Of a stretch of DNA of 52,917 nucleotides, positions 8,675 through 23,888 are shown piece after piece. Both the position numbers and the translations under genes were made by a program. How positions within the stretch are numbered: the first letter of the stretch is position 1; each line of letters starts with the position of its first letter. The notes beneath the pieces are model-generated. The model was not told the DNA's origin. It saw only the letters and a program-made list of their open reading frames with translations, and did no database searches. Where the stretch lies: positions 1-52,917 of the forward strand of contig JAHITV010000006.1 of assembly GCA_018817315.1 (NCBI GenBank). Direction: 5' to 3'. This stretch comes from Patescibacteria group bacterium. Its GTDB lineage: Bacteria; Patescibacteriota; Patescibacteriia; UBA1558; UBA10009.

Positions 8675-9118
8675 ATGTTGGAATTTGATTTAATTATCAG
8701 ATTAATTTTAGCGGTAGTTTTCGGCGGGGTAGTGGGCTGGGAACGTCAGGCCGAAAGAAAACCAGCGGGACTTAGAACTCATATGCTGGTCAGTTTAGGT
8801 TCAGCCCTTTTTACCATAATTTCTTTTGCTATTCTGGAGAAGTTTAATCAGTCTGTTGTGGATCCTACCAGAATTGCCGCTGGCATTGTCACTGGCGTTG
8901 GTTTTTTGGGAGCAGGCGCCATTCTGCAATCAAAAGGAGAAATAAAGGGCTTAACAACTGCTGCCAGTATTTGGATAGTGGCGGCTATTGGTATGACCTG
9001 CGGTTTTGGCTCTTTTCTTTTAGCCGGAGTTGCTTCTATTATCACAGTGATAATTTTATACCTGATGGACAGTTTAGAAGATAGAATAGCTTCCAGAAAA
9101 CATGAAAATAAAAATTAA
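8675..9118 (+). CDS. MgtC/SapB-family membrane protein
   Basis: This 147-aa protein has the MgtC fold: four to five membrane helices, the GWERQAERKPAGLRTHMLV motif (about residues 21-39), TRIAAGIVTGVGFLGAGAIL (about 65-84) and the IKGLTTAASIWIVAAIG motif (about 90-106). The C-terminal ACT-like domain of virulence-type MgtC is absent, as in many SapB-type proteins. Members are linked to magnesium homeostasis or membrane-potential control. It starts 5 bp after the NTPase and overlaps dut by 17 bp, so it is co-translated with nucleotide genes. Why a transport-type protein sits here is not clear. Confidence 0.88.
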   Translation: MLEFDLIIRLILAVVFGGVVGWERQAERKPAGLRTHMLVSLGSALFTIISFAILEKFNQSVVDPTRIAAGIVTGVGFLGAGAILQSKGEIKGLTTAASIWIVAAIGMTCGFGSFLLAGVASIITVIILYLMDSLEDRIASRKHENKN

Positions 9119-9524
9119 AAAGTTATATCCTGATGTTATTTTGCCTGATTATGCCCATCCTGGCGATGCCGGGATGGATTTGTATTCCAGAGAGAACAAG
9201 GAACTAAAACCCGGTGAAAGACATAATTTTCTTTTGGGTTTTGCTTTGGAATTTGATAGATCCTATGCAGCGATAGTCAAGGATAAAGGCAGTCTTTCTC
9301 ATGGATACGGTTTACATACAATCGCCGGAGTTTTTGATGCTGGCTATCGCGGTGAGTATAATGTGGAATTAATTAACCTAGGAAATGACTCATATAAGAT
9401 TTCTCAAGGTGATAAAATCACTCAATTAGTGATTTTGCCTGTGGTCATTGCCGAGCTTGAAGAAGTAGCTGAATTATCGGAAAGCGCAAGAGGCAAGGGC
9501 AGATTTGGTTCAACCGGAAAGTAA
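9102..9524 (+). CDS. dut: Deoxyuridine 5'-triphosphate nucleotidohydrolase
   Basis: This 140-aa trimeric-type dUTPase has all five motifs: HPGDAGMDLYS (motif I, about residues 20-30), DKGSLSH (II, about 61-67), AGVFDAGYRGEYNVEL (III, about 75-90), GDKITQLVILP (IV) and the glycine-rich C-terminal arm RGKGRFGSTGK (V). It hydrolyses dUTP to dUMP, limiting uracil in DNA and supplying thymidylate synthase. Start ATG 9102 lies within the end of the MgtC gene. It is the last gene before the 1-kb structured RNA region. The next thymidylate genes, folA and thyA, are on the opposite strand. Confidence 0.96.
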   Translation: MKIKIKKLYPDVILPDYAHPGDAGMDLYSRENKELKPGERHNFLLGFALEFDRSYAAIVKDKGSLSHGYGLHTIAGVFDAGYRGEYNVELINLGNDSYKISQGDKITQLVILPVVIAELEEVAELSESARGKGRFGSTGK

Positions 9525-9551: not shown

Positions 9552-10152
9552 AAAAAAAGGGCGATGCTATGAAAGCTTCACCCTTTGGTGTCTCTTGTCT
9601 TAAATATATTGAGGGATAAGCCCTGGAATCCGGGGCAACTTGCCTTGTAGGCAATTAGTAAATTCCCTCCGATCGGGCGTTTTGTTTAACGCATCGAAAT
9701 CAATCGTAGCTAATTGCCACGAAGTACATGACAAGGGAACACCTATCGTACCGGCGAATGTTAGCCGACGCCGGCGTTCGCGGTGGGACCGGTGGTGGTC
9801 GCGTCCGCGCTGGAACCGATGATCATAAAGATATTAAAGCTTGTTCTTGGGGTACGCAATCGGAAATCCAACATCGCAAACTCTCCTTGGTTTTTGGTCG
9901 GAAGGTCGAAAATTTTCTCTTTACAGAAGAGGTCCAGCACTCACAATTCAAACCAGCACTCAAAAAACGCTAATTTTAATAATGTCATAAAAGGCCGTTA
10001 ACAAAAAAGGTTTTTTTGAAATACCCTTACGGAGGCATTTTTGTTCGGAGCATATCTCGGTCTTCTACGATTATTGGCGATGAAACGCGCTGAATCCTCA
10101 TAACTCATAAAAAGAGCGTTTTTAAGCTGAATTTCAGCAGTTTCAGCTTAAT
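9552..10152 (-). ncRNA. Unidentified ~600-nt structured RNA unit with consensus promoter and terminator
   Basis: A perfect-consensus promoter (10159-10187) reads leftward to an intrinsic terminator (GGGTGA...TCGCCC plus seven T, 9552-9583). Between them is no convincing long ORF. The stretch is locally GC-rich and dense in stems: TTAAGCTGAA/TTCAGCTTAA near 10123-10150; CCGGCG...CGCCGG at about 9751-9774; CGCGG...CCGCG at about 9779-9809; and a three-way junction closed by GAGGGA/TCCCTC (9611-9668). Short frames exist, notably 38 codons (MLDFRLRTPR...) from an ATG near 9876 with an AAGGAG site, so a small peptide is possible. It does not match RNase P RNA, tmRNA or SRP RNA signatures that I know. 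Confidence 0.6.
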
Positions 10153-10158
10153 TAAAGT

Positions 10159-10187
10159 ATTATATACTATTTATTTAAAGTTGTCAA
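10159..10187 (-). promoter_or_regulatory. Full-consensus sigma70 promoter for the 600-nt RNA unit
   Basis: On the minus strand TTGACA (10182-10187) is 17 bp from TATAAT (10159-10164), identical to the sigma70 consensus at every hexamer position. This is the strongest promoter I see in the window and fits an abundantly made RNA. Confidence 0.8.
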
Positions 10188-10195
10188 GGTCTAAT

Positions 10196-10448
10196 AAAAA
10201 AAGGCGAAGCACATATATAATGGCCTCGCCTACAATTGCCAGTTTGATTACACCTGGTAGCGGAGATCCTCTTTGCTACTGACCAGTGCAATCATCGGAA
10301 CTGGTTGAGCGGATGGGACGTAATCGCGACGAAGAATCCGTCGCCTGTAATCGTCCTGGTAAATTGAATCAGCGCATGATCTGGTACCTCCTGCATTAAT
10401 GAGGGGGATTAGACATGGCGTTCGACCATGATAACGCTTCAGCCGAAC
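10196..10448 (-). ncRNA. Unidentified ~250-nt structured RNA unit
   Basis: A promoter at 10455-10484 and a terminator (AGGCGA...TCGCCT plus seven T, 10196-10230) bound this stretch on the minus strand. Inside are a long imperfect hairpin closed by GATT/AATC with a GTAGC/GCTAC core (about 10247-10295), and a GCGACG-gattctt-CGTCGC hairpin (about 10327-10346). CATGG/CCATG and GCGTT/AACGC alternatives lie near the 5' end. The longest frame is about 33 codons with no SD. It lies 19 nt downstream of folA and back to back with the 600-nt unit. No known family was recognised. Confidence 0.55.
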
Positions 10449-10454
10449 AATATT

Positions 10455-10484
10455 ATTATATCATGTATTTAGTAGAGTTAGCAA
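10455..10484 (-). promoter_or_regulatory. Promoter of the 250-nt RNA unit
   Basis: On the minus strand TTGCTA (10479-10484), an 18-bp spacer and a perfect TATAAT (10455-10460). It begins 18 bp past the folA stop codon. Confidence 0.6.
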
Positions 10485-10502: not shown

Positions 10503-11030
10503 CTAGTTTGACTTTTCGTAAACAATAAATCTGAATTTTATCTTATTTTCTTCCTGTATTTCACTTTCTTCAATTTTTTTAAAATTTTTAGGGATTTCTG
10601 GGAAAAAAGTGTCACAAGGAAAAGTTTGTAAAATTTGCGTTATATAAATTTTAGAACATTGAGGATGATAAATAGTTTCGGCATATAATTTTCCACCGCC
10701 AATAATAAAAATTTCCTTGATTTCTTTTTTTCTTTCTTCTAAAGCGATAAGAGCACGATTGAGCGAGGAATAAAGTAGAACATTAGGAGGTAGAGATAAA
10801 TCAGTTTGTTTAGAAAGTACAATATTTAGTCGTTGAGGCAGAGGTTGCCGACTTTGAGGCAAGGATTCCCAAGTTTTACGTCCCATAATTACCACATTTT
10901 GTTTATCATTACTCGGGTTGATAGTAATATCCGAAAAATGCTTTAAGTCAGCTTTAATATTCCAGGGCAGTTTATTATTTATACCAATGCCTCTTTTTTG
11001 ATCCAAGGCAACAATGATAGAGAAGTTCAT
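10503..11030 (-). CDS. folA: Dihydrofolate reductase
   Basis: This 175-aa DHFR reduces dihydrofolate to tetrahydrofolate with NADPH, recycling the cofactor oxidised by ThyA. Seen: N-terminal FSIIVALDQKRGIGINNKLPW (A, G, N and LPW substrate-site residues), VVIMGRKTWESLP (about 46-58), RLNIVLSK and the late IFIIGGGKLYAE (GGxxLY, about 107-118). An Asp or Glu follows the LPW region (KADLKHF). It lies 82 bp downstream of thyA on the same strand, the common thyA-folA order, with a fold-back repeat in the gap. Confidence 0.95.
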   Translation of the reverse strand: MNFSIIVALDQKRGIGINNKLPWNIKADLKHFSDITINPSNDKQNVVIMGRKTWESLPQSRQPLPQRLNIVLSKQTDLSLPPNVLLYSSLNRALIALEERKKEIKEIFIIGGGKLYAETIYHPQCSKIYITQILQTFPCDTFFPEIPKNFKKIEESEIQEENKIKFRFIVYEKSN

Positions 11031-14158: not shown

Positions 14159-14290
14159 GGCGTTTTGGCCTTATTGTTTTTTTGTCATCCTGAGCGTAGT
14201 CGCGCTAAGCGCGACGTAGAGAAGGATCTATATTATAGATTCTTCACTTCGTTCAGAATGACAGCATGGTTCAGTTAGCCAAAACGCCTT
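14157..14290. repeat. Palindromic short element (copy 1) inside the loop of a 13-bp inverted repeat
   Basis: Outer arms AAGGCGTTTTGGC (14157-14169) and GCCAAAACGCCTT (14278-14290) are perfect complements and probably the gatB terminator stem. Inside lies a 79-bp element (14184-14262) bounded by GTCATCCTGA and TCAGAATGAC, with an internal GTCGCGC-TAA-GCGCGAC hairpin. Copy 2 (19808-19907) has the same ends and internal hairpin but different outer arms. Confidence 0.75.
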
Positions 14291-19792: not shown

Positions 19793-19931
19793 ATTTTGCC
19801 CTTCTTTGTCATCCTGAGTGTAGTCGCGCTTAGCGCGACGTAGCGAAGGATCTTTTAAATCCATGTTCATTTTTAGATTCTTCGTCGCTTTCACTCCTCA
19901 GAATGACAAGAGGAAGTAATTAGGGCAAAAT
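19793..19931. repeat. Palindromic short element (copy 2) inside the loop of another inverted repeat
   Basis: Outer arms ATTTTGCCCT (19793-19802) and AGGGCAAAAT (19922-19931) are perfect complements, extendable to 19 bp with two mismatches (AATTATA on the left). Inside is a 100-bp element (19808-19907) with GTCATCCTGA and TCAGAATGAC ends and the GTCGCGC/GCGCGAC hairpin seen in copy 1. The outer arms differ from copy 1, so they belong to the target and not to the element. Confidence 0.75.
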
Positions 19932-21395: not shown

Positions 21396-23150
21396 TTACA
21401 GTTCATTTTTTCGTTCAGTGATTAACTTTTTTGATTTATTAATAAAGTCAGTGAGTTTTACTTCCCAAAGTTTTTTTTGGCCGCGGATACGGACAGCTAA
21501 ATTATCAGATTTCATTTCCTTATCGCCAATAACTAAAAGATAAGGAATTTTTTCTTTAATTGATTTTCTGATTTTATTGCCTACTGTTTCGTTTTGGCAA
21601 TCAATTTCAACTCTGATATTTTCTCGTTGGAATTTTTCTGCCAATTCTTCGCAGTATTTTAGATGAGCTGATCCCACGGAAATAATTTTAACTTGTACGG
21701 GGGCAAGCCACAAAGGGAAATTGCCGCCAAAATGTTCTATTAATATGCCGATAAATCTTTCCAAAGAACCAAAGGGCGCGCGGTGAATAATTACTGGTCT
21801 TTTTTCTTTACCTTTGTTATCAATATAAGTTAAATTAAATCTTTGCGGTAAATTAAAATCTAACTGTACAGTGCCGAGCTGCCATTCCCTGTCCAGCACA
21901 TCTTTGACCATAAAATCCATTTTAGGTCCGTAAAAAGCCGCATCACCTTTTTCAATGGTATAGTCAAATTTATCTTTAAGAGTTTTAATGATTATTTTTT
22001 CAGCTTTTTCCCAAATTTTATCATCACCAACATGTTTTTTACTTGCAGGATCATGAGTGCCGATTCTTACCCAGTAGTTTTTAAAATCTAAAACCTTAAA
22101 GATCGCCAGGACTAAATCAACAACGCCTAAAAATTCTTTTTCAATCTGTTGTTCAGTGGCAAAAATATGAGCGTCGTCAATGGTAAAGCCCCTAACTCTA
22201 ATTAGACCGTTTAACTCACCGGATTTTTCATAGCGGTAAACCATGCCGCATTCTGCCAGTTTAATCGGCAGTTCTTTATAACTGTGTTTTTCAGCTTGAT
22301 AAATGGTGATATGATGAGGACAGTTCATGGGTTTTAAAAGAAATTTCTCATTATCAATTTTAAACGGCGGATACTGACTGTCTTTATAATAAGGATAATG
22401 ACCGGAAGTTTTATATAATTCCAGTTTACCAATGTGAGGCGTGGTCACATATTGATAGCCGCGCTTAATTTGTTCTTCTTGGAGATAGTTCATTAATTCG
22501 TTTCTGATAATTGTTCCTTTAGGCAAAAAAAGCGGTAAGCCATTGCCAACCAGCGGATCAATAATAAACAGTTGAAGATCTTTGCCAAGCTTGCGATGAT
22601 CTCTTTCTTCTGCTTCTTTAATCATTTTTAAATAATGATCAAGTTGTTTTTTGGTAGTAAAAGCCACGCCGTAAATGCGAGTGAGCATTTTGTTTTTTTC
22701 ATCACCCCGCCAATAAGCGCCTGCTACTTTGGTTAATTTAAAAGTTTGTGGATTAATTTCCGCAGTTGATTTAACATGGGGTCCTGCACAAAGATCTATA
22801 AAGTCAGCGGATTGGTAAAAAGTAATTTTTTTAGCCAGCTCATTAAGAAGTTCTTTTTTATAAGGACCTTTGATATTTTTTAGCGCTTCCTTTTTAGAAA
22901 CTTCAGATTTTTTAAATTCAATTTTTCGTTTAATTAGCTTTTTCATTTCCTGTTCAATTTTCGGCAGATCTTCATCGGATATTTTTTGATCTTTGGGTAA
23001 ATCAAAATCATAGTAAAAACCATTTTCAATTGTCGGGCCAATAGCTAAATGAGTTTTAGGAAATTTTTTCAAAACAGCCGTGGCCATTAAATGGGAAAGG
23101 GAATGACGGATCTTGTTAAGTTGGTTTTCTTGATTGGTAACTTTTTTCAT
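21396..23150 (-). CDS. thrS: Threonyl-tRNA synthetase lacking the TGS domain
   Basis: This is a 584-aa class II synthetase. The N-terminal TGS domain (about 60 aa) of standard ThrRS is absent; the protein starts almost directly at the editing domain (IRHSLSHLMATAVLKKF, the HxxxH motif at about 16-20, later DLCAGPH). Catalytic motif 2 (YRYEKSGELNGLIRVRGF) and motif 3 (HRAPFGSLERFIGILIEH) are intact, followed by the anticodon-binding domain. It charges tRNA(Thr) and clears Ser-tRNA(Thr). Expression is probably controlled by the T-box leader ending about 225 nt upstream. The C-terminus SKKLITERKNEL has a duplicate at 19936-19974. Confidence 0.96.
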   Translation of the reverse strand: MKKVTNQENQLNKIRHSLSHLMATAVLKKFPKTHLAIGPTIENGFYYDFDLPKDQKISDEDLPKIEQEMKKLIKRKIEFKKSEVSKKEALKNIKGPYKKELLNELAKKITFYQSADFIDLCAGPHVKSTAEINPQTFKLTKVAGAYWRGDEKNKMLTRIYGVAFTTKKQLDHYLKMIKEAEERDHRKLGKDLQLFIIDPLVGNGLPLFLPKGTIIRNELMNYLQEEQIKRGYQYVTTPHIGKLELYKTSGHYPYYKDSQYPPFKIDNEKFLLKPMNCPHHITIYQAEKHSYKELPIKLAECGMVYRYEKSGELNGLIRVRGFTIDDAHIFATEQQIEKEFLGVVDLVLAIFKVLDFKNYWVRIGTHDPASKKHVGDDKIWEKAEKIIIKTLKDKFDYTIEKGDAAFYGPKMDFMVKDVLDREWQLGTVQLDFNLPQRFNLTYIDNKGKEKRPVIIHRAPFGSLERFIGILIEHFGGNFPLWLAPVQVKIISVGSAHLKYCEELAEKFQRENIRVEIDCQNETVGNKIRKSIKEKIPYLLVIGDKEMKSDNLAVRIRGQKKLWEVKLTDFINKSKKLITERKNEL

Positions 23151-23375: not shown

Positions 23376-23605
23376 AAAACCAAGACAAATAGTCTTGGGG
23401 TCCCTCGACTTACCCCTACTCGGGGTTGCTCGGGACGGTTCCACCCAATTTTCCTTCGTTGCGCTCATGACAAGTCACTTTACACAACCAAAGACACTTA
23501 ATTATATCTTGAAACTTAGCGGTTGATGACCAACCCTCTTTCGCTAAAGCTTCAGAGGGCAAGTAGTTGGTAGCTACTCCAATCGTTCCAGTTAATTAAT
23601 TATAT
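23376..23605 (-). promoter_or_regulatory. T-box riboswitch leader of thrS
   Basis: Read on the minus strand, this leader contains the T-box core TTGGGTGGAACCG (about 23439-23451), whose UGGA would pair with a UCCA tRNA 3' end. Next comes a GTCCC...GGGAC pairing with a CCCCGAGTAGGGG hairpin inside, then an intrinsic terminator CCAAGAC-TATTT-GTCTTGG plus seven T (about 23374-23392). Upstream stems include CCCTCT/AGAGGG and GGTTG/CAACC. A threonine ACC codon sits in a GTAG-ctACCaa-CTAC loop near 23568-23576 and is the best specifier candidate. Uncharged tRNA(Thr) would favour antitermination and thrS expression. Confidence 0.82.
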
Positions 23606-23663: not shown

Positions 23664-23888
23664 CTTCTTTGGATCGTCCTAAAGAAGTGCGCAGGAGCGT
23701 ATTAAACAGTCATGTTTAAAATCCCTAGGTTTTTAAACAAAACATTGCAGGAGCAATGGACTGTGGAATGTTATCCCCATGACGAAGCGCAGGAGCGCTA
23801 GGGCATTGTAACTGTATTGTTTGGTCAGCAGTATGGTTGCCTTCTGGAGAAGGTTAGCAATGATTCCATTAGACCAAAATTTTGGAGG
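23664..23888 (+). promoter_or_regulatory. Leader with serial hairpins displaying NGGA loops before gene 23897
   Basis: Hairpins in order: CTTCTTT[GGATCGTCCT]AAAGAAG (23664-23687), TGCGC[AGGA]GCGTA (23688-23701), CATTGC[AGGA]GCAATG (23743-23758), AGCGC[AGGA]GCGCT (23786-23799) and CCTTC[TGGA]GAAGG (23840-23853). A CCAAAATTTTGG palindrome then abuts the GGAGG Shine-Dalgarno site (23884-23888). Repeated GGA in hairpin loops plus one at the SD is the architecture bound by CsrA/RsmA-type proteins. Anti-SD contact is an alternative. The regulator is unknown here. Confidence 0.6.

Follow-up and report, generated by a model that had tools for sequence, protein, structure and literature searches.

The stretch analysed here (hereafter the window, 52,917 nucleotides) is contig C37 of a 1.05-Mb genome assembled into 54 contigs and roughly 92% complete, whose size and gene content suggest a member of the Patescibacteria. 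Two convergent genes of nucleotide metabolism, dut (9102–9524, plus strand) and folA (10503–11030, minus strand), are separated by a 978-bp gap that contains two short minus-strand units, each with a promoter and a terminator. We focus on the one closer to dut, which, as judged from its sequence signals, would span roughly 595 nt on the minus strand, from about position 10152 to about 9556. Its GC content is 0.438, compared to 0.341 for the whole window, and no reading frame longer than 81 residues was found in the region on either strand. Both the locally raised GC and the restriction to very short frames had been pointed out in a first-pass annotation of this DNA, which read the unit as a large structured RNA, and both are confirmed here.

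The unit is preceded by a perfect sigma-70-type promoter, TTGACA-N17-TATAAT (10159–10187, minus strand); there is no other perfect match in the window, where 0.06 would be expected. Genome-wide there are 16 such promoters and no match to a reversed-pattern control, so that the set as a whole can be taken to represent real promoters. The predicted transcript start, placed according to the location of the promoter, falls at a 5′ hairpin (AAGCTGAA...TTCAGCTT; 10122–10152, minus strand; −9.7 kcal/mol, z = −5.6) that likely protects the 5′ end. At the other end lies an intrinsic terminator (9552–9586, minus strand; −15.8 kcal/mol, z = −5.3), whose stem of 9 + 3 base pairs, AAAGGGTGAAGC-TTTCATA-GCATCGCCCTTT, is followed by a T7 tail and was overlooked by a simple terminator scanner. 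The perfect-consensus promoter and the closing terminator reported in the first-pass annotation are therefore both present, and these signals lend good support to the prediction of a separate minus-strand unit that has a promoter and a terminator of its own.

On the same strand as the promoter and the terminator there is a candidate small ORF of 37 residues (MLDFRLRTPRTSFNIFMIIGSSADATTTGPTANAGVG; 9761–9874, minus strand), with an ATG start at 9874 and a strong match to the Shine–Dalgarno sequence, AAGGAG (9883–9888, minus strand), 8 nt upstream of it. The window contains five matches to the pattern AAGGAG-N5-9-ATG, and three of the four others are at gene starts. Only 7 of 2,000 shuffles of the unit contained an AAGGAG-led ORF of at least 37 codons, for an ORF that was itself chosen after inspection; with looser definitions of the Shine–Dalgarno sequence, 72 and 209 of 2,000 shuffles matched its length, which counts against coding. 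Its codon score is 0.12 per codon (mean 0.147 in frame and 0.046 off frame). Also against coding is its GC content by codon position (0.41, 0.59 and 0.70, compared to 0.48, 0.39 and 0.37 in the orphan genes of the genome), and a leader of roughly 278 nt, which exceeds that of any other unit observed, speaks against the small-ORF reading. We nevertheless favour a putative coding role for 9874–9761. A peptide of about 38 residues had been suggested before without coordinates; the suggestion finds a counterpart in this 37-residue ORF and its AAGGAG, whereas the listed 38-residue frame with a TTG start (9654–9538) is a different one that crosses the terminator.

Folded as a whole, the 601 nt reach a z score of −4.7 on the minus strand and −2.7 on the plus strand (20 shuffles each), and the minus-strand value stems from the 3′ ~200 nt and the short 5′ hairpin. 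The last 205 nt, which comprise a 3′ domain and the terminator, score −6.0; the first 392 nt score −1.8, with 4 of 100 shuffles folding equally well, and 150-nt windows across the middle of the unit are average for the window. A leader segment bounded by a 16-nt inverted repeat (9963–10123, minus strand) folds modestly (z = −2.5), and the GC peak at 9700–9850 overlies the end of the small ORF, where folding is little above chance (9701–9850, z = −1.1). The 3′ domain is compact (9587–9743, 157 nt, minus strand; −54.3 kcal/mol, z = −5.2), with a long closing helix that opens into a three-arm junction, the third arm leading to two hairpins, and its minimum-energy fold is nearly identical to the centroid. 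As its plus strand folds equally well or better, the domain provides no evidence on strand, and a z score of −4.5 or lower is also seen in 17 of the 674 background windows, the strongest being intergenic hairpins. In a test for extensive structure beyond composition along the whole transcript, only the 3′ ~200 nt stood out; because the excess of folding is confined to them, the unit contains one well-folded domain rather than being a 600-nt structured RNA. Thus, the earlier description of about 600 nt rich in strong stems applies to the 3′ ~200 nt and the 5′ hairpin but not to the first 392 nt or the middle, and the large-structured-RNA reading is weakened both by the ordinary folding of these 392 nt and by a 3′ domain that folds on either strand.

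Rfam covariance models assigned the unit to no family, at gathering or at relaxed thresholds, in agreement with the first-pass statement that no known RNA family is present. The tmRNA and RNase P RNA of this genome were located by covariance-model matches on two other contigs (C9 and C30), outside the window, which excludes both identities for the unit, and the SRP and 6S models matched neither the 3′ domain at E values up to 10 nor the whole region at E values up to 5, so that the reported absence of RNase P, tmRNA and SRP signatures stands as well. As a separate observation, the small SRP RNA (RF00169) went undetected in the genome (G000, ~92% complete), in which tmRNA and RNase P RNA were both detected; the SRP RNA may be divergent or of the large type, or it may fall in an assembly gap.

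Blastn searches with the unit DNA covered 381 genomes of the class and recovered no homologue, and phages and plasmids gave no match; in 91 relatives, matches were limited to the promoter stretch and its short AT-rich neighbours. A 59-residue frame returned nothing by tblastn in the 91 relatives, viral contigs or plasmids, peptide fragments of the unit had no match among the Pfam, PHROGs and NCBIfam families, and no homologue of the 37-residue ORF turned up in these searches. For the 3′ domain, a covariance model based on its one sequence found no second copy in the genome and nothing credible in 286 genomes of the class; its sole weak match, which falls where a dnaJ gene begins, had an E value of 0.0056 per genome, which across 286 genomes is what chance would produce. 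Searching genome contigs with folA for close relatives recovered distant lineages only, and a literature search on the unit returned nothing relevant. Within a comparison set made up of genomes from outside its genus, the unit appears to be lineage-specific, with no relatives found outside the lineage in phages, plasmids, viral contigs or genomes of the class. The gene order around it, dcd-adk-mgtC-dut/folA-thyA, is shared with two other genomes of the family (L053 and L052), and the gap between dut and folA measures 121 bp in L053, roughly 2.15 kb in L052, where it contains a TrpR-like gene (identified by eye) and an orphan of 427 residues, and 978 bp here. The dut/folA site is a variable convergent junction.

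Nearly all of the 16 perfect promoters are found upstream of protein genes, several of which look like orphans with a GC content of 0.38–0.45; one leads into a 23S rRNA region (identified by eye), one is that of the present unit and one drives an acidic peptide of 44 residues. In this last case (L040, on contig C35; promoter at 2389–2416), the low-complexity peptide MQDDNTFAPGTDTEETDTDMP... lies directly downstream and is followed by a terminator-like hairpin. Orphan genes have a mean GC content of 0.412 (10 from the window and 6 linked to promoters), compared to 0.341 in core genes; raised GC in this genome marks orphan genes, and RNA structure is not required for it. Since perfect promoters mostly precede proteins, including orphans of raised GC, promoter and GC do not flag an RNA gene. 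What had been taken for the footprint of an abundant structured RNA in an AT-rich genome therefore loses its force: such promoters mostly drive proteins, raised GC is usual for orphans and the strong folding is that of the 157-nt 3′ domain. Five ORFan loci of the same genome (L029, L035, L039, L042 and L040) have in common with the unit a perfect promoter, raised GC and what looks like lineage specificity, and several also have an ORF led by a Shine–Dalgarno sequence and an intrinsic terminator. The unit differs from them in its longer leader, shorter ORF and compact multi-branched 3′ domain.

The second unit in the gap is predicted to span roughly 250 nt (10198–10450, minus strand) at a GC content of about 0.5, with a promoter at 10455–10484 on the minus strand (TTGCTA-N18-TATAAT, 10 of 12 consensus positions) and its own terminator, GGCGAGGCC...GTGCTTCGCC-T7. 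It folds with a z score of −3.6 including the terminator and −2.7 without, and it yielded no Rfam match and no codon signal. Elsewhere in the window, a T-box leader (23376–23600, minus strand) upstream of thrS (21396–23150) has the antiterminator motif AAAATTGGGTGGAACCGT followed by a terminator; searched alone against the Rfam T-box model, it gave an E value of 0.00044 and 25.9 bits (well under the gathering score of 93), and it is apparently a divergent, shortened T-box in a small-genome lineage. The leader of an orphan gene at 23882 carries three short repeats that look like hairpins with an AGGA loop sequence (23680–23800, plus strand; GCGCAGGAGCGT, TTGCAGGAGCAA and GCGCAGGAGCGC) and that resemble CsrA-binding or ribosome-binding decoys; CsrA was not found in the genome, and a CsrA-type explanation was set aside. 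A hairpin repeat with extreme folding scores is present in two intergenic copies (14180–14270 and 19800–19910; CATCCTGAG.GTAGTCGCGC..GCGCGACGTAG) and resembles a dispersed palindromic repeat.

We consider the unit probably a lineage-specific orphan gene and not a new RNA class. More specifically, and tentatively, as we put it at slightly less than an even chance, we favour a lineage-specific, monocistronic transcription unit that contains a small ORF, has a structured 3′ region and is placed at a variable spot between dut and folA. RNA polymerase would initiate near 10152, from the perfect promoter, and stop at the hairpin near 9556; a ribosome would bind AAGGAG and produce an orphan peptide of 37 residues; and the 157-nt 3′ domain together with the terminator would give the message a stable, protective 3′ end, perhaps also persisting as a stable fragment. 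This lineage would have gained the unit, or the unit would have evolved here, after the split from the known family members. A possible but less likely account is a noncoding or dual-function structured RNA, in which the transcript of roughly 595 nt, or a 3′ fragment of roughly 190 nt, owes its activity as an RNA to the multi-branched domain and might, for instance, regulate by binding a protein or by base pairing. The strong promoter, the adjoining second structured short unit and a 3′ domain with a well-defined ensemble (z = −5.2, or −6.0 with the terminator) would all fit, but that domain folds at least as well on the plus strand, its score is within reach of background windows, the first 392 nt are ordinary and the covariance model found no second copy in this genome or in the 286 class genomes. 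Large structured bacterial RNAs include OLE, GOLLD, ROOL, HEARO and raiA; the unit resembles them in size class and in having a multi-branched domain near the terminator, but it lacks covariance-model matches and homologues, and only 157 of its 595 nt are clearly structured.

We regard as unlikely, and as less probable than a structured RNA, that the locus is a decayed orphan gene, in which the minus-strand frame ending at 9761 would be the remnant of an ORF of more than 100 codons interrupted by two stops and still flanked by promoter and terminator. This frame (10108–9761) indeed has just two internal stops, TAA and TGA, where other frames have more, its codon scores are weakly positive along its length and its GC is typical of orphan genes; these scores are weak, however, and equalled in places by plus-strand frames, its fragments match nothing in the three protein family databases, and promoter and terminator are intact. 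Quite improbable, in our estimate, is the far-reaching proposal that the unit and its 250-nt neighbour represent a class of multi-domain structured RNA, new and specific to the lineage, which is highly expressed from a variable island and also encodes the 37-residue peptide. As for a divergent housekeeping RNA (tmRNA, RNase P, SRP or 6S), the unit is a stand-alone one, as structured RNA genes such as tmRNA and RNase P RNA are, and the undetected small SRP RNA leaves one housekeeping RNA unaccounted for; with tmRNA and RNase P RNA present elsewhere, no SRP or 6S match and the unit absent from all relatives, this idea is largely refuted and the least probable of all.

In this small, AT-rich genome, a perfect promoter combined with a GC island flags lineage-specific units, mostly protein genes, more frequently than it does RNA genes, which is a useful caution for the discovery of RNAs from sequence alone. 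If transcribed, the small-ORF unit between dut and folA would provide a test case for the gain of short genes at convergent junctions in very small genomes.
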